64,000 nucleotides of DNA from NCBI RefSeq assembly GCF_963675165.1, contig NC_087382.1:4627963-4691962 (forward strand), written 5' to 3'. Below the pieces are notes generated by a model. It saw only the letters and a list, made by a program, of their open reading frames with translations, did no database searches and had not been told where the DNA came from. How positions within the stretch are numbered: position 1 is the stretch's first letter; every line of letters starts with the position of its first letter. A program made the translations under genes and the position numbers. Origin of the DNA: Halichondria panicea. Lineage: Eukaryota; Porifera; Demospongiae; Suberitida; Halichondriidae. Shown here piece by piece: positions 13,795 to 61,748 of this stretch.

Positions 13795-16700
13795 ATGCTG
13801 TCTAGAAATATTCTCAACTGGTTAGTGCTGCTACTGACCCTAGCTACTGTTACCAGGAGTGAGCACTATCACATTGTGCCGGTGGATTCAACCAGCTTGT
13901 GTCATGACTATCGAAATGGAACCTGCTTTACTCTCGAGAAACTTCAAACAGACCTGTTATCTGGTGGAGACAATCTCACCTTGAGCTTTCTACCTGGAGA
14001 TCATGTGTTAACTGAGCAGTTATTGATTAGTAAATTTTCACATGTGCATATTACTGGCCAAAACGAATGTACAACTGTAGTCAGATTCAATAGCAAAGGT
14101 GCGATACATTTTGTTAATGTTACCAAATTGAGTATTGAATGCTTGGGTTTCATTGGAGCGAATGTTGGACCACCAAACTCACATCAAAGATTGATCGTTG
14201 ACGGTGCCCACGATGTCTATATCAACCACTGCTACTTTAATTACGCAAACAGCCACATAGTTAAGATTTTTAATACTCGAACTGCAACAATTGAGAGCAC
14301 TCTTTTTATGAACAACACTGGTCGGGCACTGCACGTTGAGGCTGATGATGTGTATATAACAAATAGCAAGTTTACTAGAAATGATGGAGGTGCAGTTTAT
14401 ACTAAATCAAACAACACACTGATCAACAACACAGAGTTCAACTACAACAGTGCCCTGAGTGGAGGAGCAGTAAAAATGTTGTCTGGTACTCTTGTGATCA
14501 CTTGGTGTAACTTCACAAGCAGCAAATCTTTAAAGCATGGTGGAGCAATTCATGTTAACTTAGGTAGTGTGTCTATCTCCAAATGTGAGCTGACAAACAA
14601 CTGTGCTGGCTATGGTGGAGCGATTTTTGTTAACTCAGGCAGTGTGTCTATCTCTGGCAGCACACTGAAAAACAACCGAGGTACCTATGGTGGAGCGATT
14701 TATACTAACTCTGGCAGTGTGTCTATCTCCAACAGTGTGTCCATCTCTGGCAGCACACTGACAAACAACAGTGCTAACGAGATAGGTGGAGCAATTTATT
14801 GCTCGGGAAGTAATATGTCCATCTCCAAATGTGAGCTGACAAACAACCGAGGTACCTATGGTGGAGCGATTTTTACTAACTCTGGCAGTGTATCCATCTC
14901 CAACAGTGTGTCTATTTCTGGCAGCATACTGACAAACAACAGTGCTAACAAGATAGGTGGAGCAATTTATTGCTCGGGAAGTAATATGTCCATCTCCAAA
15001 TGTGAGCTGACAAACAACCGAGGTACCAATGGTGGAGCGATTCATACTTTCTCTGGCAGTGTGTCTATCTCCAACAGTGTGTCCATCTCTGGCAGCACAC
15101 TGACAAACAACAGTGCTAACGAGAAGGGTGGAGCGATTCTCGTTCACTCGGGCAGTAGTATGTCCATCTCCAAATGTGAGCTGAAAAATAACGGAGGTTC
15201 CGATGGTGGAGCGATTTATGTTAACTCAAGCAGTGTGTCTATCTCTGGCAGCAGTGTGTCTATCTCTGGCAGCACACTGATAAACAACAGTGCTAACGAG
15301 ACAGGTGGAGCAATTTATTGCTCAGGAAGTAATATGTTCATCTCTAAATGTGAGCTGACAAACAACCGAGGTACCTATGGTGGAGTGATTTATGTTAACT
15401 CAGGCAGTGTGTCCATCTCTGGCAGCACACTGACAAACAACAGTGTTAACGAGACGGGTGGAGCAATTTATTGCTCAGGGAGTAATATGGTCATCTCTAA
15501 ATGTGAGCTGACAAACAATCGAGGTTCCAATGGTGGAGCGATTTATGTTAACTCAGGCAGTGTGTCCATCTCTGGCAGCATACTCACAAACAACAAAGCT
15601 AACTACTATGGTGGAGTGATTCATGTTTTCTCAGGCAGTGTGTCTATCTCTGACAACACACTGACAAACAACAGAGCTGACTTTGGTGGAGCAATTTATG
15701 TTATCTCAGGCAGTGCGTCTATCTCTGACAGCACACTGACAAACAACACTGCCAATATGAGTGGTGGAGCGTTTTATGGTAACTTAGGTAGTACTGTGTC
15801 CATCTCCCATAGTACGCTGAAAAACAACATAGCTTTCTACGGAGGAGGGATATTTCTGAAAGTATGTACGCTCTTTGTAAATGAGCCAATAGAGATCTAT
15901 CACAACACAGCACACCAAGATGGTGGAGGCATTTATGCTCATTCAAGTAAAGTTGAATTTCAATCTGCGTTACGAATTCCTGCAAATGTACAAAGTGAGA
16001 TTGCTGACAACATTGCTGAGAATGGTGGAGGTATTTATGCAGTAGCTACAACCATTAAACTAACTCATTCACACGTTAACATTGACTCAAACACAGCAAC
16101 TGCTAAAGGAGGTGGAGTGTTTCTACAGCAAAGTTCAAAACTTTACTTATTTAAGAAAGAGTACGAAGATGTGGCAGAAAAGCCTCTTGTCACATTAACA
16201 ATTAACAACAACTCGGCTCAGTACGGAGGGGGGATATTTGTAGCAGATAACACACAAAAGAGTGTGTGTGGAGGAGAGGTAACAGAAAATGGTGCCGTTT
16301 TTGAGGACTGCTTTATTCAAACAATGGATGTGCATATATTCAAGCTGAAATTAAACTACTTCAACACATTCATGACTAACAACACAGCTACCCAGTCAGG
16401 AGCAGACATCTATGGAGGTCTGTTGGACAGGTGTACAGCAAATAGAAATGCGGAATATCAAAATTCCTTAAATGGATTGGACTACATAAAAAAAACTGTA
16501 AAACCCTCCACTGAGTTATCAATCTCCTCTTCACCTGTTCAAGTAATTATTTGTAACTATTCACAAAGTGACTTTGTTCTTACTAGAAAAGGACACACAT
16601 TTAAAATCAGTGTTATGGCTGTTGACCAAGTTGGAAATCCAGTGAATGCAACAATTCAAAGTTCAGTTGTCAGTGAGAATGGAGTTGATCGCCTCAAAGA

Positions 16701-18624
16701 AGGACAGGCAGAACAAAGAGTTGGCAATCAGTGCACAGAATTAGAGTACAATGTATTCTCACAAGACAGCTTTGTTCAAGTGGAACTCTATGCCAAAGGT
16801 CCATGCAACAATTTGGGAATTTCAAAACAATTTATTAATATATATTTTCTACCCTGCACATGTCCTATTGGACTGAAACCAATTCTGTCCCAAATTGAGT
16901 GCAAGTGTGACTGTGATCCAGTCTTGCAACAAGGATATCAGATAGGAAACTGCTCAGAGAAAAATGAGACCATAAAGCTGGAAAGTAACATATGGATAAG
17001 AGTCGCAAATACCACCAACGGAACAGGTTATGTTGTTAGTAACTGTACTTTTGACTATTGTGTAGAAAAACCAGTCATTATCAGTCTAAGCAACCCTGAC
17101 GATCAGTGTGCTTTCAATCGAAGTGGTATCTTGTGTGGAGAATGTGAACCAGGACTGAGTCTTGTGTTAGCTACATCCAACTGTAAAGAATGCTCTAATC
17201 TTTACCTTCTTCTACTAATACCATTTGTGCTGGCAGGCATATTGCTTGTTGCTTTAATTCTGGTGCTCAACATCACTATAGCAATGGGAATGATTTATGG
17301 CCTTATTTTCTATGCGAACATACTAGCAGCTAATAAAGTCATTTTCTTGCCTAATTTATACAATTTTTTAACAATTTTTGTATCATGGTTGAATCTTGAC
17401 TTGGGAATCGAAATATGCTTTTATGATGGAATGAACTCTCAAGCAAAAGTACTTCTTCAACTTGTCTTTCCCGCTTACCTGTTTCTTCTTATGTTTCTTG
17501 TTATCATTTTAAGCAAGTATTTTGACTCATTTTCAAAGCTCCTCTCCAACAGGAACCCAGTTGCTGCCCTAGGAACACTTGTCCTTCTCTCTTATTCCAA
17601 ACTCTTACGGTTTATTATTGCTGCACTACGATACAGGGTCTTATATTATCCTGATAATACAAGTGATATAGTTTGGCTGTACGATGGCAATGTGCAATAC
17701 TTCACTCCTGATCACATCCCTCGGTTTGTTGCTGCTGCTATAATCCTCATTACTGGTGGATTGTTCACTGTATTGCTCTTCTTTGGACAATGGTTTTCAC
17801 GCTGTTCAAATATTATGATATGGACCAAGAATACGAAGTACAATGGCTTCATGGACGCATACCATGCTCCATTCACTCCCAAGCATCGCTACTGGGTGGG
17901 ACTGCTCCTCCTTGCACTGATTGCTCATAATATAGTAACTGCTATGGCTTCAAACACTTACCTCCCTATTCTATCATCTGGAGTTCTATCAGTTGGACTG
18001 ATTGGATGGAAACTATTGAATAATCGTTTGTATAAAAATACATTCTGTGGTTCCCTTGAAACTCTGTATCTACTCAATATTGCTACTCTAGCATTTGGCA
18101 CCTTCTATGTCAAAGATACCAAGAAAAATCAGTCAGCACTAGCCAATATTTCGATTGCTATATCATTCACCTTATTTGTCACAACACTCTGCTACCATTT
18201 TTACCAATTTGTACTCAAGAAGAGTAATACATGGCTGAAGATAGAGGACACCATAAGGAACTTACGAGCTGGTGCTGCAGACATGAGACTCCGACGAGCT
18301 AACAATGTCCGAGAAATGTATCAGCTGGTAGCTGAGGAAAACGATGAAGATCAATTACTCGAAGTAGTAGACGACTATGAACAAAGAGACGCCTTGAACC
18401 CACCTTACACTGATGAAGCTGTGGAAGAAGCTGACCCTGATCGTTACATCACTCCTCCCATTATCAGACCAGCCACGAGGCCCGAACAGTTGAGACTTTC
18501 CTACATGGATGAACTAGCCCCCCTCACCACAGAGGACTACAGACCAGCCCCTCCCCCTCCAAGAGTCAACCATTGTCCTGCTGTTACACACACAGAAATC
18601 GGCCCCATACGCAATGAAATATGA
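13795..18624 (+). CDS. Receptor gene 1: Pmp-like beta-helix multi-pass membrane protein (subtype A)
   Basis: 1609 residues in a single coding exon. Residues 1-22 are a signal peptide, then a conserved cap (EHYHIVPVDSTSLC). About 23 GGA/GGG coils span residues 199-815 (units such as SISGSTLTNNSANEIGGAIY), matching the Chlamydia Pmp-type repeat and predicting a right-handed parallel beta-helix. Most coils carry NNS/NNT sequons. An Ig-like segment (about 905-1015, KISVMAVDQVGNPVNA) and a Cys-rich module (about 1020-1130, CTCPIGLKP, ECKCDCDP, CGECEPGLSLVL) follow. About 9-10 hydrophobic helices (1137-1474) contain NLDLGIEICFYDGMNSQAK and NRNPVAALGTLVLLSYSK. The tail (1475-1609) has PPYTDE, DRYITPP, SYMDELAPL and RPAPPPPR. 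The ATG follows the conserved splice acceptor. Likely a surface receptor or adhesin; ligand and function unknown. The TM core resembles an uncharacterised family I recall from early animals. Confidence 0.9.
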   Translation: MLSRNILNWLVLLLTLATVTRSEHYHIVPVDSTSLCHDYRNGTCFTLEKLQTDLLSGGDNLTLSFLPGDHVLTEQLLISKFSHVHITGQNECTTVVRFNSKGAIHFVNVTKLSIECLGFIGANVGPPNSHQRLIVDGAHDVYINHCYFNYANSHIVKIFNTRTATIESTLFMNNTGRALHVEADDVYITNSKFTRNDGGAVYTKSNNTLINNTEFNYNSALSGGAVKMLSGTLVITWCNFTSSKSLKHGGAIHVNLGSVSISKCELTNNCAGYGGAIFVNSGSVSISGSTLKNNRGTYGGAIYTNSGSVSISNSVSISGSTLTNNSANEIGGAIYCSGSNMSISKCELTNNRGTYGGAIFTNSGSVSISNSVSISGSILTNNSANKIGGAIYCSGSNMSISKCELTNNRGTNGGAIHTFSGSVSISNSVSISGSTLTNNSANEKGGAILVHSGSSMSISKCELKNNGGSDGGAIYVNSSSVSISGSSVSISGSTLINNSANETGGAIYCSGSNMFISKCELTNNRGTYGGVIYVNSGSVSISGSTLTNNSVNETGGAIYCSGSNMVISKCELTNNRGSNGGAIYVNSGSVSISGSILTNNKANYYGGVIHVFSGSVSISDNTLTNNRADFGGAIYVISGSASISDSTLTNNTANMSGGAFYGNLGSTVSISHSTLKNNIAFYGGGIFLKVCTLFVNEPIEIYHNTAHQDGGGIYAHSSKVEFQSALRIPANVQSEIADNIAENGGGIYAVATTIKLTHSHVNIDSNTATAKGGGVFLQQSSKLYLFKKEYEDVAEKPLVTLTINNNSAQYGGGIFVADNTQKSVCGGEVTENGAVFEDCFIQTMDVHIFKLKLNYFNTFMTNNTATQSGADIYGGLLDRCTANRNAEYQNSLNGLDYIKKTVKPSTELSISSSPVQVIICNYSQSDFVLTRKGHTFKISVMAVDQVGNPVNATIQSSVVSENGVDRLKEGQAEQRVGNQCTELEYNVFSQDSFVQVELYAKGPCNNLGISKQFINIYFLPCTCPIGLKPILSQIECKCDCDPVLQQGYQIGNCSEKNETIKLESNIWIRVANTTNGTGYVVSNCTFDYCVEKPVIISLSNPDDQCAFNRSGILCGECEPGLSLVLATSNCKECSNLYLLLLIPFVLAGILLVALILVLNITIAMGMIYGLIFYANILAANKVIFLPNLYNFLTIFVSWLNLDLGIEICFYDGMNSQAKVLLQLVFPAYLFLLMFLVIILSKYFDSFSKLLSNRNPVAALGTLVLLSYSKLLRFIIAALRYRVLYYPDNTSDIVWLYDGNVQYFTPDHIPRFVAAAIILITGGLFTVLLFFGQWFSRCSNIMIWTKNTKYNGFMDAYHAPFTPKHRYWVGLLLLALIAHNIVTAMASNTYLPILSSGVLSVGLIGWKLLNNRLYKNTFCGSLETLYLLNIATLAFGTFYVKDTKKNQSALANISIAISFTLFVTTLCYHFYQFVLKKSNTWLKIEDTIRNLRAGAADMRLRRANNVREMYQLVAEENDEDQLLEVVDDYEQRDALNPPYTDEAVEEADPDRYITPPIIRPATRPEQLRLSYMDELAPLTTEDYRPAPPPPRVNHCPAVTHTEIGPIRNEI
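14672..15360 (+). repeat. 171-bp higher-order repeat inside gene 1
   Basis: Blocks starting near 14671, 14842, 15013 and 15187 repeat at steps of 171, 171 and 174 bp (57-58 residues). Each block contains two beta-helix coils plus an extra SVSIS strand, for example RGTYGGAI, then NSVSISGSTLTNN, GGAIYCSGSNMSISKCEL. The copies are close in sequence, so this is recent internal expansion. Confidence 0.9.
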
Positions 18625-19029: not shown

Positions 19030-19346
19030 TAACATGCACATACATTGAAGGTAGTTATCATCCAACAGTACGTCCCCATTGCTCTCTTTAGACGGATCAT
19101 GAATCGACTTCTCATGGAGCCCTTCAAATCGAACACCTTGTTGGTGCTGTGCTCCATCACTAGAACGTCCAATTGTCTTGAGGAACCGGTACGAGAGTTG
19201 CGAAATCCAATACTGTACGCACCGAGGATCTCGGCCAAGGTCAAAGGTATCTGAAAGGTATAGGCAACCACAGGTAGATCTATAATTATAATGTGCATAT
19301 AGAGGTCAACACTCATCTTTTGTACGATCTCCTTTCCAACGTACAT
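19030..19346 (-). pseudogene. PIKfyve-like lipid kinase fragment (a)
   Basis: On the - strand a cctttcag acceptor is followed by IPLTLAEILGAYSIGFRN, then RQLDVLVMEH and KVFDLKGSMRSR. This is the phosphoinositide-kinase core and fits PIKfyve/Fab1 best (family motifs ILGVYRIGYKNS, KLDLLVMEN, VFDLKGSLRNR). About eight residues between VMEH and KVFDL are missing compared with the family. The next motif, GDVLLDDNYLQ, is readable only in another frame. The piece is therefore a decayed exon, with no complete kinase around it. Confidence 0.75.
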
Positions 19347-19398
19347 ACGAGACTCATGGTTACTATAATCTAAAATGCTGAGACACTGTTTAGAAAGT

Positions 19399-19491
19399 TT
19401 CCACGTGATTTAGAAGCCCTCAGGGCTTAGTAGAACCCCCACTCATTCGAGATACTACAACAAGCCTTTTGGGTTTCTAAATCACGTGGAA
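19399..19491. mobile_element. 93-bp hairpin element
   Basis: ttccacgtgatttagaa at the left and ttctaaatcacgtggaa at the right are exact inverted copies. A second inner pair (gccctcagggc) adds structure. No coding capacity; the target duplication is unclear. Confidence 0.7.
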
Positions 19492-21645: not shown

Positions 21646-21647
21646 AT

Positions 21648-24600
21648 ATGCTGTTCAACTGGTTAGTGCTGCTACTGACCCTAGCTACTGTTACCAGGAG
21701 TGAGCACTATCACATTGTGCCAGTGGATTCAACTGACTTGTGTCATGACTACTATCGAAATGGAACTTGTTTCGCTCTCGAGCAGCTTGTTCAAACAAAC
21801 CTGTTATCTGATGGAGACAATCTCACCTTGAGCTTTCTACCTGGAGATCATGTATTAACTGAGCAGTTATTGATTCGTAACTTCTCACACGTGCAAATCA
21901 CTGGCCAGAACACAGGTACAACTGTAGTTGGTTTCCATAGCAATGCTACGATACTTTTTGTTAATAATACTGAATTGAGTATTGAAAACTTGGGTTTCGT
22001 TGGAGTGAATGTTGGACCACAAACCAATCGAAGTATGATTATTGACAATTCCCACAACGTTTATATTAAAGATTGCTACTTTATGGACTTTGTATTACTC
22101 AATCAGGTGGAAACCCACATAGTTAAGATTGCTAATACTCAAACTGCAACAATTGAGAGCACTCTCTTTATGAACAATACTGGTCAGGCACTGCACGTTG
22201 AGGCTGATGATGTGTACATAACAAATAGTGTGTTCACTAGAAACGATGGAGGTGCAGTTGACATTGATTTAAACAAGGTACTGTTCAGCAACAGCATAGA
22301 GTTATACTACAATAATTCTTGGAGCGGAGGAGCAGTAGAAGTGGTGTCTGGTACTCTTGTGATCACATCGAGTACCTTCATCGATAACAAATCTCAGTTT
22401 GGTGGAGCAATTTCTATTTTCTCAGGTAGTCTGTCCATCTCTGACAGTACACTGACTAACAACAGTGCCTATGGCAGTGGCGGAGCGATTAGTATTTACT
22501 CAGGTAGTGTGTTCATCTCTGACTGTACGCTGACAAACAACAGAGCTGACGGTGGTGGGGCGATTGGTGTTTTTACAGGCAATGTGTCCATCTCCAACAG
22601 CGAGCTGACAAACAACAGAGCTGACTCTGGTGGTGGTGGAGCGATTGGTGTTTCCACAGGCAGTGTGTCCATCTCCAACAGCGAGCTAACAAACAACAGA
22701 GCTGATTATGGTGGAGTGATTGGTGTGACCTCAGGTGATGTGTCCATCTCCCACAGCACTCTTTCAAACAACAGAGCTGTTGGTGGTGGAGCGATTGGTG
22801 TTTTGACAGGCAGTGTGTCCATCTCCAACAGCACACTGACAAACAACAGAGCTGGCTTTGATGGTGGTGGAGCGATTGGTGTGAACTCAGGAAGTGTGTC
22901 TGTTTTCCACAGCACTCTAACAAACAACAGAGCTAACTTTGGTGGAGCAATTTATGTTAGCGAAGGCGGTAGTGCGTCCATCTTCAACAGTAGATTGGCA
23001 AACAACAGAGGTACTAAAAATGGTGGTGGAGCGATTGGTGCGAACTCAGGCAATGTGTCTATCTCCCACAGCACTCTGACAAACAACAGAGCTGAATATG
23101 GTGGAGCGATTAGTGTTAGCGAAGACAGTACTTTGTCCATCTCCATCTGTGAGCTGACAAACAACAGTGCTGATAAGGGTGGAGCTATTGATGTTTGCCC
23201 AGGCAGTAATGTGTTCATTTCTGACAGCATGGTGACAAACAGCAGTTCCAATAGAGGAGTAATTTATGCTTCAAGATCCAACTTAATCCTTAACAACACT
23301 AACATTACCAATAACATGGTCAGTTTGAACATTAACCAGCAATCAAATGTGACATTCACAGGAATGAATATTGTCAGCAATAATAATGGCCCCATTAATG
23401 CTTCTAATAGTCGAGTCGACTTTAATGGACCTACAACACTCAGTAACAATCATGGTGTGTTTGGCGGAGCCATCAGCGCTGACCAGAGTCAAATATACAT
23501 TAACGCAGAAGGAGTAATCATCACCAACAACACGGCTACCTCTGGAGGAGGGATATTTCTGAGAGAGAGTACGCTCTTTGTAAATGAGCCAATAGAGATC
23601 AATCAGAACACAGCACATAATGGCGGAGGGATTTATGCTTATTCAAGCAGAGTTGAGTTCAAATCAGTGCAGATGGTAGGTGCTGATACTTATCCAAATA
23701 AACAGAGTGAGATCGCTCACAACATTGCTGAGAATGGTGGAGGTATTTATGCAGTATCTTCAAGTGTTGAACTTACTCAGTCATACGTCAACATTGACTC
23801 AAACACAGCAGCCACTAAAGGAGGTGGAGTGTATCTACAGCAAGGTTCAAAACTGTACATATATAAAAATGACCCTGACATTTCGGCAAAGGATCCATTG
23901 GTCAAGCTAATGATTAACAACAACTTGGCTCAGTACGGAGGGGGAATATTTGTGGCAGATGACACAGAGAGTGGTGCCTGCAGAGGAGGGGCCACAGAAA
24001 CTGATGCAACTCAAACCATTTTTGCTGATTGCTTCATTCAAACAATTAAATTGCATAGTGACTCCATCAAAATAAACCATATCAACACATTCATGACTAA
24101 CAACACGGCTACACAGTCAGGAGCAGACATCTTTGGAGGTTTGTTGGACAGGTGTACAGCAAGTCAAAATGCTGAATATAAATCTTCAAAAGGATTGGAC
24201 TACATAATTAAAACCGTAAGATCCACCATTGCATCGATCTCCTCTAGGCCTGTTCGATTGACGTTTTGTAACTATTCACAATATGACTATGTTTCTACAA
24301 AAAAAGGACATACATTTAAAATCAGTGTTATGGCTGTTGACCAAGTTGGAAATCCAGTGAATGCAACAATTCAAAGTTCAGTTGTCAGTGAGAGTGGAGT
24401 TAATCGTCTCAAAGAAGGACAGGCTGAACAAAGAGTTGGCAATCAGTGCACAGAATTAGAGTACAATGTATTCTCACAGGACAGCTCTGCTCAAGTGGAA
24501 CTCTATGCCAAAGGTCCATGCATCAATTTGGGAATTTCCAGACAACTTATTAATATTTCTTTTCTACCCTGCACATGCCCTGTCGGACTCAAGCCAATTC

Positions 24601-26333
24601 GGTCCCCAATTGAGTGCAAGTGTGACTGTGATCCAGTTTTGCAAACTGAAGAATATCAGATAACAAATTGTTTTGAGCAAAATGGAACCATAGCGCTGGA
24701 AAGAAATAACAACACATGGATAGAAGTCATAAATACTACCAACAGAACGGAGTATGTTGTTAGTAACTGTGCATTAGACTATTGCGTAGAAATTCCAATT
24801 AATATCAGTCTAAGTAACCGTGACGAACAGTGTGACTACAATCGAAGTGGTGTCTTGTGTGGAGAATGTGAACCAGGACTAAGTCTTGTGCTGGCTACGT
24901 CAAACTGTCAAGAATGCTCTAATCTTTACCTTCTTCTACTAATTCCATTTGTGCTGGCTGGCATATTGCTAGTTGCTTTAATTCTCGTGCTCAACATCAC
25001 TATAGCAACTGGAAATCTTCATGGCATCATTTTTTACGCAAATATAGTAGCTGCTAATAGAGCAATTTTCTTTCCTAGTTTAAACAACTTTTTAACAGTT
25101 TTCATATCATGGGTGAATCTTGACCTGGGAATCAACACGTGCTTTTATGATGGAATGAACTCTCAAGCAAAAGTACTCCTTCAACTTGCCTTTCCCACTT
25201 ATCTGTTTCTTCTAATACTTCTTATTATAGTTTTGAGCAAGTATTTTGACTCATTTGCAAAACTCCTCTCCAACAGGAACCCAGTTGCTGCCCTAGGCAC
25301 ACTCGTCCTACTGTCTTATTCTAAATTTTTACGATTTATCGTTGCTGCACTACAAAGCAGGGTCTTGGAATATTCTGATGGTTCAATCAAGACTGTTTGG
25401 TTGTTTGATGGCAACGTAACATACTTTACTTCCAAACACATTCCTCAGTTTGTTGCTGCTATTATAATCCTCATTGCTGGTGGATTGTTCACTGTAGTGC
25501 TCTTCTTTGGGCAATGGTTTCCACGCTGTTCCAAGGTTATGATATGGACCAAGAACACATATTACATTGGCTTCATGGACGCATACCATGCTCCATTCAC
25601 TCCCAAGCATCGCTACTGGGTGGGACTGCTCCTCTTTGCTCTGATTGCTCATAATCTAGTAGCTGCCATGGCTGCAGACACTTCTCTCCCTGTGCTATCA
25701 GCTGGGTGTATTGCATTCGAGCTGATATCATTGAACAACCGAGTGCACAAAAAGCAATTTAATGGATATCTAGAAACCTTCTTTCTGCTTAATCTTGGCA
25801 TTCTATCTATTGGCACTTCCTATGTTGTTGAAACACACCGACAGCAAGAAACACTGATCAATGTTTCAATGTCCATAGCTTTCATCCTTTTTGTGATAAT
25901 AATCAGCTACCATTTCCACCACTTTATACTAAAGAAGACCAAAATATGGCTTAAAATAAAGGAAGTCACAAAGAACTTGAGAACTGGTGCTGCAGACAAA
26001 AAGAATCAACAACCTAACAACGCCATGGCAATGCATCATCTTGCAGCCATTGATGACGATGAGCAACTTAAAGCTGAGCATATAGATCTAGACATGGTGG
26101 ACCCACCATCTTACACTGATGGAGCCGTGGAACAAGCTGACCCTGATCGTTACATCACTCCTCCCATCATCAGACCAGCCACGAGGCCGGACCAGTTGAG
26201 AGAGCCTGCCCTGGACGTACTAGCCCCCCTCACTACAGAGGACTACAGAAGACCAGCCCCTCCCCCTCCAAGAGTCAACCATCGTCCTGTTGTTACGCAC
26301 ACAGAAATCGGCCCCATACGCAATGAAGTGTGA
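21648..26333 (+). CDS. Receptor gene 2: Pmp-like multi-pass membrane protein (subtype B)
   Basis: 1561 residues, single coding exon. The signal peptide is shorter (about 1-18, starting MLFNWLVLLL). About 20 coils follow; several have an extra glycine (GGGAIGV). Residues about 565-630 hold a segment shared only with gene 6 (NNNGPIN, FNGPTTLSNN, FGGAISADQSQIYIN). The Cys-rich module starts near 973, helices span about 1095-1430. The last helices are a subtype-B variant (TSLPVLSAGCIAFELISLNN, SIGTSYVVETH) unlike genes 1, 3, 4, 5 and 7. The tail differs too: it has a PPSY sequence, a genuine PPxY WW-binding consensus, where the paralogs have PPY, plus RPAPPPP, an RxxPxxP SH3-type match. The source of the fragment at 6608-7122. 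Surface recognition role inferred. Confidence 0.9.
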   Translation: MLFNWLVLLLTLATVTRSEHYHIVPVDSTDLCHDYYRNGTCFALEQLVQTNLLSDGDNLTLSFLPGDHVLTEQLLIRNFSHVQITGQNTGTTVVGFHSNATILFVNNTELSIENLGFVGVNVGPQTNRSMIIDNSHNVYIKDCYFMDFVLLNQVETHIVKIANTQTATIESTLFMNNTGQALHVEADDVYITNSVFTRNDGGAVDIDLNKVLFSNSIELYYNNSWSGGAVEVVSGTLVITSSTFIDNKSQFGGAISIFSGSLSISDSTLTNNSAYGSGGAISIYSGSVFISDCTLTNNRADGGGAIGVFTGNVSISNSELTNNRADSGGGGAIGVSTGSVSISNSELTNNRADYGGVIGVTSGDVSISHSTLSNNRAVGGGAIGVLTGSVSISNSTLTNNRAGFDGGGAIGVNSGSVSVFHSTLTNNRANFGGAIYVSEGGSASIFNSRLANNRGTKNGGGAIGANSGNVSISHSTLTNNRAEYGGAISVSEDSTLSISICELTNNSADKGGAIDVCPGSNVFISDSMVTNSSSNRGVIYASRSNLILNNTNITNNMVSLNINQQSNVTFTGMNIVSNNNGPINASNSRVDFNGPTTLSNNHGVFGGAISADQSQIYINAEGVIITNNTATSGGGIFLRESTLFVNEPIEINQNTAHNGGGIYAYSSRVEFKSVQMVGADTYPNKQSEIAHNIAENGGGIYAVSSSVELTQSYVNIDSNTAATKGGGVYLQQGSKLYIYKNDPDISAKDPLVKLMINNNLAQYGGGIFVADDTESGACRGGATETDATQTIFADCFIQTIKLHSDSIKINHINTFMTNNTATQSGADIFGGLLDRCTASQNAEYKSSKGLDYIIKTVRSTIASISSRPVRLTFCNYSQYDYVSTKKGHTFKISVMAVDQVGNPVNATIQSSVVSESGVNRLKEGQAEQRVGNQCTELEYNVFSQDSSAQVELYAKGPCINLGISRQLINISFLPCTCPVGLKPIRSPIECKCDCDPVLQTEEYQITNCFEQNGTIALERNNNTWIEVINTTNRTEYVVSNCALDYCVEIPINISLSNRDEQCDYNRSGVLCGECEPGLSLVLATSNCQECSNLYLLLLIPFVLAGILLVALILVLNITIATGNLHGIIFYANIVAANRAIFFPSLNNFLTVFISWVNLDLGINTCFYDGMNSQAKVLLQLAFPTYLFLLILLIIVLSKYFDSFAKLLSNRNPVAALGTLVLLSYSKFLRFIVAALQSRVLEYSDGSIKTVWLFDGNVTYFTSKHIPQFVAAIIILIAGGLFTVVLFFGQWFPRCSKVMIWTKNTYYIGFMDAYHAPFTPKHRYWVGLLLFALIAHNLVAAMAADTSLPVLSAGCIAFELISLNNRVHKKQFNGYLETFFLLNLGILSIGTSYVVETHRQQETLINVSMSIAFILFVIIISYHFHHFILKKTKIWLKIKEVTKNLRTGAADKKNQQPNNAMAMHHLAAIDDDEQLKAEHIDLDMVDPPSYTDGAVEQADPDRYITPPIIRPATRPDQLREPALDVLAPLTTEDYRRPAPPPPRVNHRPVVTHTEIGPIRNEV

Positions 26334-52193: not shown

Positions 52194-52197
52194 ATAT

Positions 52198-55100
52198 ATG
52201 CAGTCTAAGAGTATTCTCAGCTGGTTAGTGCTACTGACCCTAGCTACTGTTACCAGGAGTGAGCACTATCACATTGTGCCAGTGGATTCAACCGACTTGT
52301 GTGATGAATATCGAAATGGAACTTGTTTCGCTCTCGAGCAGCTTGTTCAAACAGACCTATTATCCGCTGGTGGAGACAATCTCACCTTGAGCTTTCTACC
52401 TGGAGATCATGTTTTAACTGAGCAGTTATTGATTCGTAACGTTAGACATGTGCATTTAACTGGCCAGAACACAAGTACAACTGCAGTTGGATTCCATGGT
52501 ACAATGCGTTTTGATAGTACTGCTAAATTAAATATTGAACACTTGGGTTTTGTTGGAGCGAATGTTGGACCACAAAACTTTGATCAAAGTTTATTCATTG
52601 ATGGTGCCCATGATATCTATATCAACAACTGCTACTTTATGGACTTCAATCAGGTAGAAACCCACATACTTAAGATTGTTAATGCTCAAACTGCGACAAT
52701 TGAGAGCACTTTCTTTATGAACAACACTGGTTGGGCACTGCAAGTTGAGGCTGAGGATGTGTACATAACAGATAGTGAGTTCACTAGAAACGATGGAGGT
52801 GCAGTTGACATTGAATCAAACAACTTTCTGATCAACAACACAGAGTTCAACTACAACAGTGCTGAGAGTGGAGGAGCAGTAAAAGTGGTATCTGGTACTG
52901 TAGTGATCACTTGGTGTAACTTCACAAATAACAAAGCTTCTTGGAGTGGTGGAGCGATTTATGCTGCTGGCTCAGGCAGTGTGTCCATCTTCGACAGTAG
53001 GCTGACAAACAACAGAGCTAGCTATGGTGGAGTGATTTATGTTGACTCAGGCAGTGTTTCTATCTCTGACAGTGAGCTGACAAATAATAGAGCTGACAGA
53101 GGGTGCGGTGGAGCGATTAATGCTGGCTCAGGCAGTAGTGTGTCTATCTCCGACAGTACGCTGACAAACAACAGAGCTCTCTATGGTGGAGCAATTTATG
53201 TTACTTTATGTAGTTTGTTTATCTCTAACAGTGAGCTGACAATTAATAGGGCTGGCTGGAGTGGTGGAGCAATTGCTGCCTCAGGCAGTTTTTTGTCCAT
53301 CTCTGACAATACGCTGACAAACAACACAGCTAACTATGGTGGAGCGATTTATGTTGAATCAAGCAGTGTGTCTATCTCTGACAGTGGGCTGACAAACAAC
53401 AGAGCCGACGGGACTGGTGGAGCGATTAATCTACTCACAGGCCGTGTATCCATTTCTGACAGCACATTGACAAACAACAGAGCTGAAAATGCTGGAGTGA
53501 TTAGTGTTACGTTAGGCAATGTGTCCATCTCCGACAGTACTCTCACAAACAACAGAGCTGATGAGGTTGGATCCGGAGCAATTGACGTTTTGGAATTCTC
53601 CACCTTGATCATACACAACACTGTCATCAGTAATAACATAGATAGTTTGAACATTCAACAATCAAATGTGATATTCACGGGAATAAATATTGTCAGAAAT
53701 AACAATGGTCCCATCAATGCTTTCAATAGTCGAATGGAGTTTAATGGACCTACAACACTCAGTAACAATCGTGGTGTGTTTGGCGGAGCCATAAACGCTG
53801 ACCAGAGTCACATATACATTAACATAAATAATGGAATGATCATCAGCAACAACACGGCTACCTACGGAGGAGGGATATTTCTGAGAGAGAGTACAATCTT
53901 TGTAAATGAGACAATACAGATCTATCAAAACACAGCACACCAGGACGGTGGAGGCATTTATGCTTATTCTAGCAGAGTTGAGTTCCAATCATTAGTGGTA
54001 AGTGATTTTCCTCCAAATAAAGAAAGTGAGATTGCTCACAACATTGCTGAGAATGGTGGAGGTATTTATGCAGTAGCTACTACTATTGAACTAAGTCGAT
54101 CACACGTTAACATCGACTCAAACACAGCAACCACTAGTGGAGGTGGAGTGTACCTACAGCAAAGTTCAAAACTGTACCTATTTAAAAAGAAACCTGAATA
54201 TCAATCATATTATGTCAGGTTAGTGATTAACAACAACTCGGCCGAGTATGGAGGAGGGATATTTGTGGCAGATGACACCGAGAGTGGTGCCTGCAGAGTA
54301 GGGGCCACAAAAAATGATGCTACTAAAATCATTTTTGCGGACTGCTTCATTCAAACAATTAGATTACATTCGGCCAAGAGCATTAATCAAAACTATTTCA
54401 ATACATTCATGACTAATAACACAGCTACCCAGTCAGGAGCAGACATCTACGGAGGTCTGTTGGACAGGTGTATAGCAAGTAAAAACGCTGAATATAACAT
54501 TTCTTTGAATGGATTGGACTATATTAGAAATACCATAGAAGTCTCCACCGAACCACCATCAATCTCTTCTAGGCCTGTTCGAGTAGTTGTTTGTAACAAT
54601 TCACATATTTCTACAAGAAAGGGACACGCATTTAAGATCCGAGTTATGGCTGTTGACGAAGTTGGAAATGCAGTGAATGCCAAAATTCATAGTTCAGTTG
54701 TCAGTGAGAGTGGAGTTGGTCGTCTCAAAGAAGGACAGGCTGAACAAACAGTTGGCAATCAGTGCACAGAATTAGAGTACAATGTGTTCTCAAACGAAAG
54801 CTCCACTCAGATGGAACTCTATGCCGAGGGTCCATGCATCAATTTGGGAATTTCAAGAAAACTTGTTAATATATATTTTCAACCCTGCACATGCCCTATT
54901 GGACTCAAGCCGATTATGTCCCATATTGAGTGCAAGTGTGACTGTGATCCAGACTTGCAAACAGAAGAATATCAGATAACAAATTGTTCTGAGGAGAATG
55001 AAACCATAAAGCTGGAAAGTAATAACAACATATGGATAGAATTCATAAATACTACCAAAAAAACAGGGTATGTTGTTAGTAACTGTGCATTTGACTATTG

Positions 55101-56670
55101 TGTAGAAAAACCAGTTCACATCAGTCTAAGCAACCCTGACGAACAGTGTGCATACAATCGAAGTGGTGTCTTGTGTGGAGAATGTGAACCAGGACTGAGT
55201 CTTGTACTGGCTACGTCAAACTGTAAAGAATGCTCTAATCTTTACCTTCTTTTACTAATCCCATTTGCATTGGCAGGTATATTGCTAGTTGCTTTAATTC
55301 TCGTGCTCAACATCACTATAGCAACTGGAAACATTCATGGCCTTATTTTTTACGCCAACATAGTAGCTGCTAATAGAGCAATTTTCTCTCCTAGTTTAAA
55401 CAACTTTTTAACCATTTTTGTATCATGGGTGAATCTTGACTTAGGAATCGACACGTGCTTTTACGATGAAATGAACTCTCAAGCAAAAGCGCTTCTTCAA
55501 CTTATCTTTCCCGCTTACTTGTTTTTTCTAATCTTCTTAATAATCATTTTGAGCAAGTACTTTGACTCATTTGCAAAGCTCCTCTCCAACAGGAACCCAG
55601 TTGCTGCCCTAGGAACACTCGTCCTACTCTCTTATTCAAAATTCTTACGTTTCATTGTTGCTGCGCTACAATTCACATACTTACATTATCCTGATGGTTC
55701 AATCAAGATTGTTTGGTTGTTTGATGGTAATGTGCAATACTTCACTCCCACTCACATCCCTCAGTTTGTTGCTGCTATCATAATCCTCATTGCTGGTGGA
55801 TTGTTCACTGTACTGCTTTTTTTTGGACAATGGCTTCCGCAGTGTTCAAAGGTTATGATATGGACTAAGAACACAAAATACATTGGCTTCATGGATGCAT
55901 ACCATGCTCCATTCACTCCCAAGCATCGCTATTGGGTGGGACTGCTCCTGTTTGCTCTGATTGCTCATAATCTAGTAGCTGCCATGGCTACAGACACTTC
56001 TCTCCCTGTACTATCTGCTGGGTGTATTGCATTCGGACTAATATCATTGAACAACCTAGTGTACAAAAAGCAATTTAATAAATATCTAGAAACATTTTTT
56101 CTGCTTAATCTCGGCATTCTATCTATTAGCACTTCCTATGTTGTTGAAACACACCAACAGCAAGAAACACTGACCATTGTTTCAATGTCTATAGCTTTCA
56201 TCCTTTTTGTGACAATCATCAGCTACCATTTCCACCATTTCGTACTAAAGAAGACCAAAGTATGGCTCAAGATAAAGGAAGTTGTTAAGGATATCGAAAC
56301 AAAATTACGAGCAGGTGTTGCAGACAAGAGACTCCGACAAGCTAACAATGGTCGGGTAATGTATCAGCTGGTAGTCGATGAAAACGATGACGATGAATTA
56401 CTTGAAGTATTAGACGATTATGAACAAAGAGACCCCGTAGACCCACCTTACACGAATGGAGCTGCTGTGGAAAAAGCTGACCCTGATCGCTACATAACTC
56501 CTCCCAATATCATACTAGCCACGAGGCCGGATCAGCTGAGACTATCCTACATGGATGAACTATCCCCCCTCACCACAGAGGACTACAGACCAGCCCCTCC
56601 CCCTCTAAGAGTCAATCTTCGTTCTATTGTTACACACACAGAAATCGACCTCATACACAATCAAGTATGA
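52198..56670 (+). CDS. Receptor gene 6: Pmp-like multi-pass membrane protein (subtype B, mosaic)
   Basis: 1490 residues with about 17 coils. ATGs at 52171 and 52183 lie within the predicted intron; MQSKSILSWL at 52198 is preferred. The cap resembles gene 3. The segment FNGPTTLSNN..FGGAINADQSHIYIN (about residues 515-545) and the helices (from about 1015; TSLPVLSAGCIAFGLISLNN, TSYVVETHQQQETL) are subtype B like gene 2. The tail (from about 1352) switches back to the subtype-A form (NNGRVMYQLVVDENDDDELL, DPPYTNG, DRYITPP). Some coils have lost a GGA glycine (ENAGVISV, VGSGAIDV). It ends IHNQV. Intact. Confidence 0.9.
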   Translation: MQSKSILSWLVLLTLATVTRSEHYHIVPVDSTDLCDEYRNGTCFALEQLVQTDLLSAGGDNLTLSFLPGDHVLTEQLLIRNVRHVHLTGQNTSTTAVGFHGTMRFDSTAKLNIEHLGFVGANVGPQNFDQSLFIDGAHDIYINNCYFMDFNQVETHILKIVNAQTATIESTFFMNNTGWALQVEAEDVYITDSEFTRNDGGAVDIESNNFLINNTEFNYNSAESGGAVKVVSGTVVITWCNFTNNKASWSGGAIYAAGSGSVSIFDSRLTNNRASYGGVIYVDSGSVSISDSELTNNRADRGCGGAINAGSGSSVSISDSTLTNNRALYGGAIYVTLCSLFISNSELTINRAGWSGGAIAASGSFLSISDNTLTNNTANYGGAIYVESSSVSISDSGLTNNRADGTGGAINLLTGRVSISDSTLTNNRAENAGVISVTLGNVSISDSTLTNNRADEVGSGAIDVLEFSTLIIHNTVISNNIDSLNIQQSNVIFTGINIVRNNNGPINAFNSRMEFNGPTTLSNNRGVFGGAINADQSHIYININNGMIISNNTATYGGGIFLRESTIFVNETIQIYQNTAHQDGGGIYAYSSRVEFQSLVVSDFPPNKESEIAHNIAENGGGIYAVATTIELSRSHVNIDSNTATTSGGGVYLQQSSKLYLFKKKPEYQSYYVRLVINNNSAEYGGGIFVADDTESGACRVGATKNDATKIIFADCFIQTIRLHSAKSINQNYFNTFMTNNTATQSGADIYGGLLDRCIASKNAEYNISLNGLDYIRNTIEVSTEPPSISSRPVRVVVCNNSHISTRKGHAFKIRVMAVDEVGNAVNAKIHSSVVSESGVGRLKEGQAEQTVGNQCTELEYNVFSNESSTQMELYAEGPCINLGISRKLVNIYFQPCTCPIGLKPIMSHIECKCDCDPDLQTEEYQITNCSEENETIKLESNNNIWIEFINTTKKTGYVVSNCAFDYCVEKPVHISLSNPDEQCAYNRSGVLCGECEPGLSLVLATSNCKECSNLYLLLLIPFALAGILLVALILVLNITIATGNIHGLIFYANIVAANRAIFSPSLNNFLTIFVSWVNLDLGIDTCFYDEMNSQAKALLQLIFPAYLFFLIFLIIILSKYFDSFAKLLSNRNPVAALGTLVLLSYSKFLRFIVAALQFTYLHYPDGSIKIVWLFDGNVQYFTPTHIPQFVAAIIILIAGGLFTVLLFFGQWLPQCSKVMIWTKNTKYIGFMDAYHAPFTPKHRYWVGLLLFALIAHNLVAAMATDTSLPVLSAGCIAFGLISLNNLVYKKQFNKYLETFFLLNLGILSISTSYVVETHQQQETLTIVSMSIAFILFVTIISYHFHHFVLKKTKVWLKIKEVVKDIETKLRAGVADKRLRQANNGRVMYQLVVDENDDDELLEVLDDYEQRDPVDPPYTNGAAVEKADPDRYITPPNIILATRPDQLRLSYMDELSPLTTEDYRPAPPPLRVNLRSIVTHTEIDLIHNQV

Positions 56671-57159: not shown

Positions 57160-60100
57160 TCACTGCATAATTTTTTTTATGGGGCCGATATCCGTATGTG
57201 TAACGGGACGACGGTTAGGATTTGGAGGGGGAGGGGCTGATCTTCTGTAGTCCTCTGTGGTGAGGGGGGCTAGTTCATCCATGTAGGATAGTCTCAGCTG
57301 ATCTGGCCTCGTGGCTGGTCTGATGATGGGAGGAGTGATGTAACGATCAGGGTCAGCTTTTTCCATGGCTCCATCAGTGTAAGGAGGGTCTCTTTGTTCA
57401 TAGTCGTCTACTGCTTCAAGTAATTCATCGTCATTGTTTTCATCGGCTACCAGCTGATACATTTGTCGGGCGTTGTTAGCTCGTCGGAGTCTCATGTCTG
57501 CAGCACCAGCTCCTAAGTTCCTTATAGTGTCCTCTATCTTTAGCCATGTATTACTCTTCTTGAGTACGAATTGGTAAAAGTGATAACAAAGTGTTGTGAC
57601 AAATAGGGTGAATGATATTGCAATCGAAGTATTGGCTAGTGCTGACTGATCTTTCTTGGTATCTTTGACATAGAAGGTGCCAAATGATAGAGTAGCAATA
57701 TTGAGCAGATATAGAGTTTCGAAGGAACCACAGAATGTATTTTTATACAAACGATTATTCAAGAGTTTCAATCCAATCAGTCCCACTGATAGAACTCCAG
57801 ATGATAGAATAGGGAGGTAAGTGTCTGGAGCCATAGCAGTTACTAGATTGTGAGCAATCAGAGCAAAGAGGAGCAGCCCCACCCAGTAGCGATGTTTTGG
57901 AGTGAATGGAGCATGGTATGTGTCCATGAAGCCAATGTACTTTGTATTTTTGGTCCATTTCATAACTTTGGAACAGCGAGGAAACCATTGTCCAAAGAAG
58001 AGCACTACAGTGAACAATCCACCAGCAATGAGGATTATAGCAGCAGCAACAAACCGAGGGATGTGATCAGGAGTGAAGTATTGCACATTACCATCGTACA
58101 GCCAAACTATATCACTTGTATTATCAGGATAATCCAAAACCCTGTGTTGCAGTGCAGCAATGATAAACCGTAAGAGTTTGGAATAAGAAAGTAGGACGAG
58201 TGTGCCTAGGGCAGCAACTGGGTTCCTGTTGGAGAGGAGTTTTGCAAATAAGTTAAAGTACTTGCTCAAAACAATAATAAGAAACACAAGAAGAAACAAG
58301 TAAGCGGGAAAGACAAGTTGAAGGAGCACTTTTGCTTGAGAGTTCATTCCATCATAAAAACATATCTCGATTCCCAAGTCAAGATTCAACCATGATATGA
58401 AAACCGTTAAAAAGTTATTTAAACTAGGAAAGAAAGTCACTCTATTAGCTGCTAGTATATTAGTATAGAAAATAAGGCCATGAATATTTCCCGTTGCTAT
58501 AGTGATATTTAGCGTGAGAATTAAAGCAACTAGCAATATGCCAGCCAGCGCAAATGGTATTAGTAGAAGAAGGTAAAGATTAGAGCATTCTCTACATTTT
58601 GACGTGGCCAACACAAGACTGAGTCCTGGTTTACATTCTCCACACAAGACACCACTTCGATTGTAGGCACACTGTTTGTCAGGGTTGCTTAGACTGATGT
58701 TGACTGGTTTTTGTACACAATAGTCAAATATACAGTTGCTAACAACATACCCTGTTCCGTTGGTGGTATTCGCGACTTCTATCCATATGTTACTTTCTAG
58801 TTTTATGGTCTCATTTTCCTCAGAACAATTTTTTATCTGATAATCTTGTTGCAATATTTGATCACATTCGCACTTGCATTCAATATCCGACTGAATTGGC
58901 TTGAGCCCAATAGGGCATGTGCAGGGTAGAAAAGAAATATTAATAAGTTGTCTTGAAATTCCCAAATTGATGCATGGGCCTTTGGCATACAGTTCCACCT
59001 GAGCAGAGTTGTCTTTTGAGAATACATTGTACTCTAACTCTGTGCACTGATTGACAACTGTTTGTTCAGCCTGTCCTTCTTTGAGACGACCAACTCCACT
59101 CGTAGTGATAACAGAACTGATAATTGTGGCATTCATTGGATTTTCCACTTGGTCAACAGCCTTAACACTAATTTTATATGTGTGTCCTTTTCTTATAGAA
59201 ATATAGTCACTTTGTGAATAGCTACAAACAATTACTTCAACAGGCGAAGAGGAGATTGATAACTTAGTGGAGGATTTTACAGTTTTGTTTATGTAGTCCA
59301 ATCCATCTGAAGAATTGTGATATTCAGCATTTTGACTTGCTGTACACCTGTCCAACACACCACCGTAGATGTCTGATCCTGACTGGGTAGCCGTGTTGTT
59401 AGTCATGAATGTGTTGAAGTGGTTTATTATTGGTCCAGGTTCCATCAAGCTGATTGTTTGAATAAAACAGTCCTCAAAAATGGTTTGAATAACACCAGTT
59501 TCTGTGACCCTTCCTCTGCAGGCACTACTCTCTGTGTCATCCGCCACAAATATTCCCCCTCCGTACTGAGCCGAGTTGTTGTTAATTAGTAATGATACAT
59601 ATGTAATCTGAGACTGATTCTTTTCTGCAACATATTCATACTCTTTTTTAAAAATGTACAGTCTTGAACTTTGGCGCAGAAACAATCCACCTCCTTTCGC
59701 GGATGCTGTGTTTGAGTCAATGTTAACGTGTGATCGAGTTAGTTTAATGTATGTAACTACTGCATAAATACCTCCACCATTCTCAGCAATGTTTTCAACA
59801 ATCTCACTTCGTATATTTGATGGAATCGGTAAAGCAGATTCAAATTCAACTCTACTTGAATGAGCATAAATTCCTCCACCATCCTGTTGTGCTGTATTGA
59901 GATTGATCTTTATTGGCTCATTTACTAGGAGTGTACTCACTCTCAGAAATATTCCTCCTCCAGAGGTAGCTCTGTTGTTTTTGAGCGTACAGTCAGAGAT
60001 GGACACGGTGCTACCAAGGTCACAATGGATCGATCCACCATTTGCGACAGCACGATTGTTTGTCATTGTGCTATCTGAGATAGACACACTGCTTGAGTAA

Positions 60101-61748
60101 ACACCAATCGCTCCACCACTCCCGTCAGCATTGTTGTTTGTCAGTGTGCTATTGAAGATAGACACACTGCCTGAGTAGGTATCAATCGCTCCACCATTAC
60201 CGTCAGCACAGTTGTTTGTCAATTTGCTGTCGGAAATAAAGACACTGCCTGAGTCAATATTAATCCCTCCACCCCAACTGCCAGCTCTGTTGTTTGTCAG
60301 GTTGCTACTGGAGACGGTCACGTTGCCTGATTGCACACCAATTGCTCCACCACTCTCATCAGCTCTATTGTTTGTCAGTGTGCTGTCGTAGATGGACATA
60401 TTACCTGACTTAACACCAATCGCTCACCACCAACACTTATAGCAGTGTTGTTTGTCAGGGTGCTGCCGAAGATAGACAAACTGCCCAAGTAATTATTAAT
60501 AGCTCCACCACTCCAGTCAGCACTGTTGTTTGTCAGTGTGCTGTCATTGATAAGCAAACTACCTGAGTAATTATTAATCGCTCCACCAACTCTGTTCGCT
60601 TCGTTATTTTTCAGTGTGCTGTCGGAGATGGTCACACTGCCTGAATAATTATCAATAGCTCCACCATTCCAGTTAACACAGTTATTTGTCAGTGTGCTGT
60701 AGGAGATAGAAACGTTGCCCGAGTCATCAATTGCAATCGCTCCACCATATTTATCAGCTGTGTTGTTTGTCAAGGTGCTATTGAAGATAGACACACTTCC
60801 TGCGTAAACACTAATCGCTCCACCACTTCCGTCGGCACTGTTATTTGTCAGTGTGCTGTCGGAGATGGACACACTACTTGAGTTAACAAAAATTGCTCCA
60901 CCATTCCAGCCAGCACTGTTGTTTGTCAGCTCACAATTGGAAATGTTCACACTACTGCCTGAGCCAACATAAATTGCTCCACCATACCACCGATAAGCAT
61001 TGTTATTTGTGAAGCTACACCAAGTGATCACTACAGTACCAGATACCACTTTTAATGCTCCTTCGTTCCTAGCACTGTTGTAGTTGAACTCTGTGTTGTT
61101 GATCAGTGAGTTGTTTGATTCAATGTCAACTGCACCTCCACCATTTCTAGTGAACACATTATTTGTTATGTACACATCCTCAGCCTCAATGTGCAGTACC
61201 TGACGAGTGTTGTTCGTAAAGAGATTTCTCTCCATTGTTGCAGTTTGAGTTTTAGCAATATTTATTATCTTCTCTGGCTGACTGAGTAGTTTAAAGTCCA
61301 TAAAGTAGCAGTCGTTGATATAGACATCATGGGCACTGTCAATGGTTAATCCTTGATGTGACTTTTGTGGTCCAAAATTCGCTCCAATGAAACCAAAACG
61401 TTCAATGCTTAATTTGGTAATACTAACCAAACGTATTGCACCATTGCTATGGAATCTGACTACAGTTGTATTTTCCGTCAGGCCAGTGAGATATACATGT
61501 GAGAAGTTAAGAATCAATAACTGCTCAGTTAACACATGATCTCCAGGTAGAAAGCTCAAGGTGAGATTGTCTCCACCAGGTAACAGGTCTGTTTGAACAA
61601 GCTGCTCGAGAGTAAAACAAGTTCCATTTCGATAGTCATTACACAAGTCAGTTGAATCCACTGGCACAATGTGATAGTGCTCACTCCTGGTAACAGTAGC
61701 TAGGGTCAGTAGGAGCACTAACCAGCTGAGAATACTTCTAGACAGCAT
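57160..61748 (-). CDS. Receptor gene 7: Pmp-like multi-pass membrane protein (subtype A), one-base frameshift
   Basis: The only member on the - strand. Starts at 61748 (MLSRSILSWL) just after the conserved acceptor. The frame is open for about 440 codons to a coil where ggtggtgagcg replaces the usual ggtggtggagcg: one G is missing (about 60424-60428 on +). The rest, about 1079 codons to 57160, is open in the next frame. All other parts are intact: about 20 coils, Cys-rich module (CTCPIGLKP), subtype-A helices, and a tail with YITPP and YMDELAPL. About 1529 residues without the frameshift. The C-terminus is altered: GPIKKIMQ instead of GPIRNEV, from an A-rich change near 57171-57182. With a single lesion this is either a young pseudogene or an assembly error. 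Confidence 0.85.

Follow-up and report, generated by a model that had tools for sequence, protein, structure and literature searches.

A tandem array of receptor-like genes

The window analysed here is a 64-kb stretch of the genome of the sponge Halichondria panicea (C6:4627963-4691962, contig NC_087382.1; the searched genome comprises 131.5 Mb on 39 contigs). It carries a tandem array of genes whose predicted products join a beta-helix ectodomain to a multi-pass membrane core and a motif-rich tail, and which are likely to be cell-surface recognition receptors. The array proposed at 13795-61748 in the initial annotation is confirmed, and its limits are two start codons (ATG at 13795 and ATG at 61748). 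Within it we observe six genes on the + strand and one on the - strand. Genes 1-6 each consist of one uninterrupted open reading frame (ORF) of 1,434-1,632 codons from stop to stop, and gene 7 is covered by two overlapping ORFs that represent one gene broken by a frameshift.

13795..18624, + strand: gene 1, single-ORF beta-helix/multi-pass receptor candidate with internal 171-bp coil duplications (ORF 13759-18624)
21648..26333, + strand: gene 2, architecture as gene 1; transmembrane helices (TM) 7-10 of type B, PPSY in the tail (ORF 21612-26333)
28389..33122, + strand: gene 3, architecture as gene 1; TM7-10 of type A (ORF 28287-33122)
36769..41043, + strand: gene 4, architecture as gene 1; shortest coil array among the six intact genes (ORF 36739-41043)
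45037..49911, + strand: gene 5, architecture as gene 1; longest coil array among the six intact genes (ORF 45013-49911)
52198..56670, + strand: gene 6, mosaic, with N-terminus and upstream flank nearest gene 3 and TM7-10 nearest gene 2 (ORF 52147-56670)
57160..61748, - strand: gene 7, architecture as gene 1; frame broken in the coil array near 60375-60426 (ORFs 61841-60375 and 60423-57160)
6625..7031, + strand: relic of an eighth copy, a broken ectodomain fragment of coils only, found by tblastn and translation

The seven paralogs counted initially are six intact genes and one frameshifted gene; the count misses the eighth fragment and at least four further copies beyond the window (C6:4698043, 4707438, 4715816 and 4724533), where the run reaches C6:4,725,939. 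All seven genes have CTCAG 2-4 bases 5′ of the start codon, which may be the splice acceptor of an intron in the 5′ untranslated region.

Protein architecture and predicted ectodomain fold

The initial annotation described a Pmp-like GGAI beta-helix ectodomain, a multi-pass core and a motif-rich tail, a layout that is borne out by Pfam matches and by about ten hydrophobic segments. Among the window genes, genes 1 and 4 were scanned as whole proteins against the Pfam and NCBIfam libraries. Gene 1 matches Chlam_PMP (3.7e-31) and Beta_helix (3.1e-22), gene 4 matches Chlam_PMP (1.9e-24), and POMP_repeat is found in both (7.6e-17 and 4.2e-7, respectively). By eye the proteins begin with a signal-like stretch. 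The N-terminal part spans 200-209 residues and leads into the coil array, whose length is 258-467 residues among the six intact genes. Next come a less repetitive helix C-terminal part of 232-240 residues, the sandwich of 109-112, the Cys module of 115-118, the membrane core (335-338) and the tail (134-141). The coils have 25-27 residues each, and each intact gene has 15-26 GGA-type coil anchors. The parts of gene 4, the first sequence in both structure predictions (ectodomain and core), are as follows.

36769..36834, + strand: signal-peptide-like N-terminus, recognised by eye; the model has an N-terminal helix at residues 2-16
37450..38223, + strand: variable GGA(I/V) coil array, predicted beta-helix, placed by the GG register and the model
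38224..38937, + strand: less repetitive C-terminal part of the predicted beta-helix, along which model confidence drops
38938..39273, + strand: predicted beta-sandwich, macroglobulin-like; predicted local distance difference test (pLDDT) mostly 49-62
39274..39618, + strand: Cys-rich module (CTCP...LCGEC...C..C), DUF7630-like below the cut-off
39619..40632, + strand: membrane core with about ten hydrophobic segments and the motif DAYHAPFTPKHRYW
40633..41043, + strand: tail with RYITPP, QLR..YMDELAP and PPP motifs

The ectodomain is predicted to be a right-handed beta-helix of the pectin-lyase-like fold, followed by a macroglobulin-like sandwich. The gene 4 model (867 residues, 8 rows) has a mean pLDDT of 71.7, with blocks mostly at 84-98 over residues 161-530. 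Using this model, Foldseek found 3 PDB chains at E <= 0.001, whose TM-scores for the full-length query are 0.17-0.37; the top match is the PL6 alginate lyase 8bwk (E 6.2e-5), but with a root-mean-square deviation (rmsd) of 23 over the whole query. VIA-align matched the model to the phage tail protein 8egr_B (Z 27.9, rmsd 2.6 over 484 residues), RbmB (Z 25.3), AlgE4 (Z 25.1), the adhesin PfbA (Z 22.3) and pertactin (Z 18.7), and matched residues 726-835 to the macroglobulin region of complement C5 (Z 10.5). In NCBIfam the gene 1 ectodomain also weakly resembles rhombotarget A, at 2.3e-9 and with 36 bits where the cut-off is 295; rhombotarget A likewise appears in the gene 4 fold list (Z 19.8).

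Membrane core, Cys module and tail

Averaged over 14 superfamily members, hydropathy resolves into about ten hydrophobic segments after overlapping ones are joined. Some loops have sequons and the others basic residues, and by eye this would fit nine spanning helices with an extracellular ectodomain and an intracellular tail; segment 1017-1035 of gene 4, which is weak, may be a loop or re-entrant. In 30 scanned cores we found no 7tm Pfam match, and no Pfam family matched the membrane part above its cut-off. The best family was DUF7630 (PF24633), a name that gives no function and whose likeness is to the NRSGVLCGEC...C..C part of the Cys module. It matches 30 of 30 cores within an E limit of 5 (best 5.2e-5); window genes 1 and 4 score 18.3-21.3 bits, below the 27-bit cut-off, which is passed by 4 copies elsewhere in the genome alone (e.g., C2:466376 with 27.9 bits and C11:5689058 with 27.8) and by 5 more together with their neighbours. 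Other weak Pfam matches in these cores, such as MurT_C (best 0.0018, 7 of 30), were taken as chance, as were the best hits of a PDB sequence search (E 0.13 for gene 1 from sandwich to tail; E 1.7 for a 30-member core profile). Core identity to gene 1 is 71-90% among the window genes.

Copies from the rest of the genome were compared in sets of 45-46 genes, which are those nearest to the window family and not a random sample. L001-L005 were left out as the window's own genes, and L013, L020, L024, L025 and L026 as the same places as L047, L033, L035, L036 and L037; L006 was left out of the coil, module and tail counts, L030 of the module table, and L044 of the trees. The tail is rich in shared motifs: among 46 copies, counting L044 though its compared slice holds no tail, RYITPP is found in 41, the QLR...LAP block in 43, P-rich stretches in 41, PPY-type motifs in 36 and LSYMDELAP in 34. 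Some of these belong to what we take to be motif classes for SH2/SH3 docking, and the tail may dock proteins of this kind. In seven more distant superfamily members (L051-L057), an LREPLL-like motif stands near the C-terminus of 4 (L052, L053, L055 and L057; LREPLL itself in L052, QLREP-like ends in L053 and L055) and partly matches the QLREPALD form of the window family; the rest of these tails differ.

The conservation of core and tail bears on the possibility that the proteins act in cell or matrix adhesion, with helices that bind each other or the matrix and a diversity that sets adhesion specificity. The bacterial surface proteins pertactin and PfbA are among the fold matches, and PMC11166332 reports a prediction that Pmp21-D helices stack into oligomers. 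However, a conserved multi-pass core and tail blocks kept in at least 40 of 46 copies exceed what an adhesin needs. We regard adhesion, which overlaps with a recognition role, as possible, with some doubt.

Amino acid change clusters along one predicted face of the helix

The domains differ in constraint. For pairs of window genes, the median ratio of nonsynonymous to synonymous substitution rates (dN/dS) is 0.29 in the Cys module, 0.29 in the membrane helices, 0.45 in the tail and 0.55-0.64 in the ectodomain parts. To compare coils, we put them in register on GG and numbered positions from there, with negative numbers counted from the coil end. Entropy peaks at positions 4 and 6 and at the last two or three positions. 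Among 190 nearest coil pairs (258 coils from 26 genes), the nonsynonymous difference per site (pN) divided by the coil-wide synonymous difference per site (pS) is 1.89 at position 4, 1.69 at position 6, 2.19 at position -2 and 1.83 at position -1; position -3 reaches 1.02, and all remaining positions of this set fall below 0.9. When each coil was used once (107 pairs, 315 coils, 37 of 41 genes), the four positions together gave 1.75 (interval 1.43-2.12) and the rest 0.52, and pairs between genes only (99 pairs) gave 1.54 (1.26-1.88) and 0.46.

Because the four positions had first been seen in part of the same data, we ran a hold-out over 200 random splits, each of which used one half of the genes to choose positions and the remaining half to test them. 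Positions 4, 6, -2 and -1 were picked in 188-200 of the 200 splits; in the held-out half their ratio had a median of 1.62 (1.28-2.10) and exceeded 1 in 200 of 200 splits, with the rest of the coil at 0.51. A single-column version of the hold-out gave 0.78 (0.65-0.94) for the Cys module with TM1-6, 0.82 (0.59-0.98) for TM7-10, 1.01 (0.74-1.44) for the tail, 1.05 (0.81-1.30) for the sandwich, 0.98 (0.73-1.22) for the N-terminus and 1.63 (1.35-1.97) for the helix C-terminal part. A clear amino acid excess is thus seen in the helix only, and the intervals of the tail, sandwich and N-terminus span 1. Strong purifying selection on the coils, which the initial annotation held would speak against a recognition role, is not seen uniformly: the four positions have pN above the coil-wide pS in the hold-out, the other positions stand at about 0.5, and coil-average dN/dS is still below 1. 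By pairwise counting, diversifying selection appears confined to a predicted surface face of the helix, an effect that is weak in the closest pairs.

The position of this face was read from the gene 4 model. Strand PB1 corresponds to coil positions 3-6, where hydrophobic residues at 3 and 5 alternate with 4 and 6, and positions 4 and 6 should therefore face outward. The turn that precedes GG (T3) contains position -2 and has position -1 at its edge. The cleft formed by PB1 and T3 binds the substrate in pectate lyases, and aromatic residues are common in many glycan-binding sites; position 4 is rich in aromatics, with Y in 56 and F in 47 of 315 coils. The names GGA, PB1 and T3 and the inward alternation of side chains follow PMC11166332.

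Two other functions can be judged on this evidence. Chemosensory or feeding receptors, e.g., for bacterial or algal glycans in filter feeding and not for immunity, would fit both the aromatic-rich stripe and the predicted fold, which is shared with glycan lyases, epimerases and phage tailspikes. This function overlaps with recognition and the evidence favours neither chemosensing nor immunity over the other; as a reading distinct from immunity we find it rather doubtful. Membrane-anchored glycan-processing enzymes with a lyase-like helix are very unlikely: PL6, GH87 and AlgE4 are among the fold matches, yet the GGA-type anchors are as numerous as listed above for each intact window gene, and the PB1/T3 face, which carries the active site in lyase-like enzymes, is the most variable part.

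Mosaic genes

The initial remark that the membrane core barely changes does not hold for its last four helices, whose DNA in genes 2 and 6 matches that of the other five window genes at 70-73% identity. Within the groups, TM7-10 identity is 91-94% among genes 1, 3, 4, 5 and 7 and 93% between genes 2 and 6. TM5-6 shows a weaker form of this split (80-85% between groups, 86-94% within), the remaining parts are 73-96% identical, and the N-terminus and sandwich lack a group split of the TM7-10 type. Among 45 copies, TM7-10 is nearest to type A in 31, type B in 8 and type C in 3, with 3 copies of no type. Other combinations are found as well: L023 and L029 have a sandwich, Cys module and TM1-6 of type C yet a TM7-10 of type A, and L034 joins a sandwich nearest gene 4 to a TM7-10 of type B. 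Gene 6 is 89% identical to gene 3 in the N-terminus and 82% over 367 bp of upstream flank, and genes 4 and 5 have a common upstream flank (84% over 867 bp).

Distances across 22 genes, with three outliers left out, correlate at 0.42 between core and N-terminus (best of 500 permutations 0.35) and at 0.93 between N-terminus and helix C-terminal part; with the outliers kept, the values are 0.77 and 0.94. Exchange between copies, by conversion or unequal crossing-over, would be the simplest cause of this mosaicism.

Family size across the genome

Seven is far from the size of the family, and the window holds a small subset of it. A 20-base family motif, allowing one mismatch, has 116 matches in the genome (1 for the reversed control), and the looser superfamily motif RxGxLCGxC has 216 (control 3). 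A differently spelled membrane-core motif has 20 matches (control 0), 10 of them in C11:5.35-5.41 Mb. The copies form clusters on C6, C11, C14, C3, C4 and C17, and this large, clustered family is what a recognition repertoire leads one to expect. Searching with the core of gene 1 gave at least 88 matches (88 of 466 candidates scored, all of which match; weakest E 3.6e-183), and the core of a distant member gave at least 89 (89 of 479 candidates scored). A 19-column Pmp repeat model found nothing genome-wide at E <= 0.001 among the 150 of 540 candidates scored, and no relative was confirmed in 54 stretches tried from other genome contigs or 55 from viral contigs.

Among the 88 scored copies, 56 keep a frame open for 1,300 aa or more, 7 are interrupted by stops within the core and 25 are shorter, which marks a birth-and-death family. 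Each of the seven members taken from clusters elsewhere, L051-L057, is encoded in one ORF of 1,183-1,355 aa. From sandwich to tail, six of them are 21-36% identical to each other and to the window family and L056 17-21%, low values which suggest that the window family is one GGA-coil-rich branch of a deeper superfamily. Long open frames are found at C6:3203725 (L011; 2,847 aa), C6:4707438 (2,206 aa) and C6:5042941 (1,971 aa), which probably have very long ectodomains. The copies at C6:1274719 and C6:1391380, with equal score, equal frame length and one TGA each, could be a recent segmental duplication or a duplicated assembly.

A candidate recognition repertoire

We consider it likely that these genes are a germline-encoded, tandemly expanded family of cell-surface recognition receptors. 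A surface recognition family, as proposed initially, is the best-supported reading because amino acid change concentrates on one face of the repeat ectodomain and not in the core; allorecognition, microbe recognition and adhesion are not separable here. With the architecture, copy number, mosaicism and localised excess described above, each gene would encode an extracellular beta-helix with a variable number of coils, on which the stripe along PB1 and the adjoining T3 turn (positions 4, 6, -2 and -1) would be a ligand-contacting face diversified by selection. The macroglobulin-like sandwich and Cys module would hold the helix on a conserved core of about nine helices, and the signal would be relayed by a cytoplasmic tail in which Tyr and Pro motifs are conserved. 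Tandem duplication, gain and loss of coils and mosaic exchange of ectodomain against TM7-10 would generate the diversity of the repertoire. The targets might be microbe glycans or the surfaces of other individuals' cells.

Several points weigh against this reading. Pooled dN/dS per domain is 0.35-0.72 (0.72 in the coils) and below 1 everywhere. When pS of the four positions themselves serves as the reference, the hold-out ratio falls to 1.37 (1.00-1.93), with 97.5% of splits above 1. Coil pairs of 88-98% identity, the 52 closest, give 1.44 (1.01-2.03) against the coil-wide pS and a non-significant 1.07 (0.68-1.76) against the same-position pS, and with these ratios the excess is not proved by the closest pairs alone. 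The test is pairwise counting and not a codon model, and the split halves are not independent lineages, as each can contain relatives of genes in the other. The AlphaFold2 model of the seven window cores is unusable (pLDDT 37.7, predicted TM-score 0.24), 32 of the 88 scored copies have short or interrupted frames, and the data are the sequence of one assembly.

The low domain-wide dN/dS, the own-position ratio of the closest coil pairs and the share of short or interrupted copies would suit a neutral expansion, in which tandem duplicates accumulate under relaxed constraint and no diversifying selection acts. Relaxation alone, however, should not lift pN above the coil-wide pS at four in-register positions that recur in held-out genes and whose neighbours stay near 0.5, and we think neutral expansion unlikely.

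Known systems resemble the window family in part. Chlamydia Pmps (PF02415, TIGR01376) likewise have the GGA(I,L,V) beta-helix coil repeat and form a multigene family. The link drawn initially to Pmps stands for the repeat, given the Chlam_PMP matches, and fails for the autotransporter barrel, as no autotransporter model matched genes 1 and 4 at E <= 1 in the Pfam or NCBIfam scans. PMC11166332 describes Pmps as bacterial autotransporters with a beta-barrel, whereas in the window family, in an animal, the helix is carried by the macroglobulin-like sandwich, the Cys module and about nine alpha-helices. Only the repeat is common to both, possibly through convergence. Pectin-lyase-like enzymes and phage tailspikes (PL6, GH87, AlgE4) are alike in predicted fold; the window family differs from such enzymes in its membrane receptor layout, regular Pmp-type coils and hypervariable PB1/T3 face.

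Lineage-specific repertoires such as the lamprey variable lymphocyte receptors (VLRs), which are built of repeat units with a variable binding face, and the SRCR genes of sponges and sea urchins also consist of many clustered copies. SRCR or Calx-beta domains define the sponge aggregation factors and SRCR receptors; Pfam scans that covered window genes 1 and 4 and seven superfamily members found neither domain. In contrast to VLR and SRCR genes, the window family has a beta-helix in place of leucine-rich repeats or SRCR domains, single-ORF genes and a polytopic core, and nothing seen here points to somatic assembly. The sponge and sea urchin SRCR repertoires are treated in PMC10855680. Elsewhere in the same genome we observe at least 213 SRCR matches (150 of 1,364 candidates scored), at C3:6.4-6.9 Mb, C11:2.0 Mb and on C5, C2 and C16, a very large repertoire and a second candidate recognition family. 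Such an SRCR set, a low number of Wnt loci and a genome of small size fit a sponge. A bolder version of the recognition reading, which we offer tentatively as possible, is that an early animal lineage evolved its own equivalent of lamprey VLRs from the beta-helix. Some 200 germline genes would then have a hypervariable, selected PB1/T3 stripe, with variable coil number and exchangeable ectodomain and TM7-10 modules adding diversity, and would serve self/non-self or symbiont/microbe discrimination.

We found no description of a receptor core of this kind, and recognised no paper on a beta-helix/multi-pass architecture, in open PMC literature, a scope outside which most subscription papers lie. 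Our guess is that sponge annotations probably already contain genes of this type under no name. PMC3386278 lists a cluster of 18 segments, apparently of the Amphimedon proteome, with 2 annotated 'pectin lyase-like', which may or may not be the same family. Sponges tell self from non-self with high specificity, and the introduction of PMC5450542 attributes this to a polymorphic genetic system. In a sponge genome, the family described here is a concrete candidate for that system, as it comprises about 200 genes that combine a defined variable face with a conserved membrane part.

Other features of the window

Minisatellites of 9 bp lie at 530-2001 and 2771-4151, with the unit GTAGCACTG and the complement-like CCAGTGCTA; the long ORFs on both strands over them are probably spurious. 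A glyoxalase-like exon (PF00903, 3.4e-6) at 7715-7945 on the + strand, whose letters we take to resemble methylmalonyl-CoA epimerase, probably belongs to an ordinary host gene adjoining the array. A kinase-like fragment suspected from the letters between genes (19032-19409 and 26767-27096) was dropped, as there is no such Pfam match. Between genes 4 and 5, 41491-43802 contains nested inverted repeats (arms of up to 176 nt, 98% complementary) and 31-bp tandem units, a putative fold-back-type element. Elsewhere in the genome, Wnt has 10 matches on three contigs (best 5.3e-54), as befits an animal.

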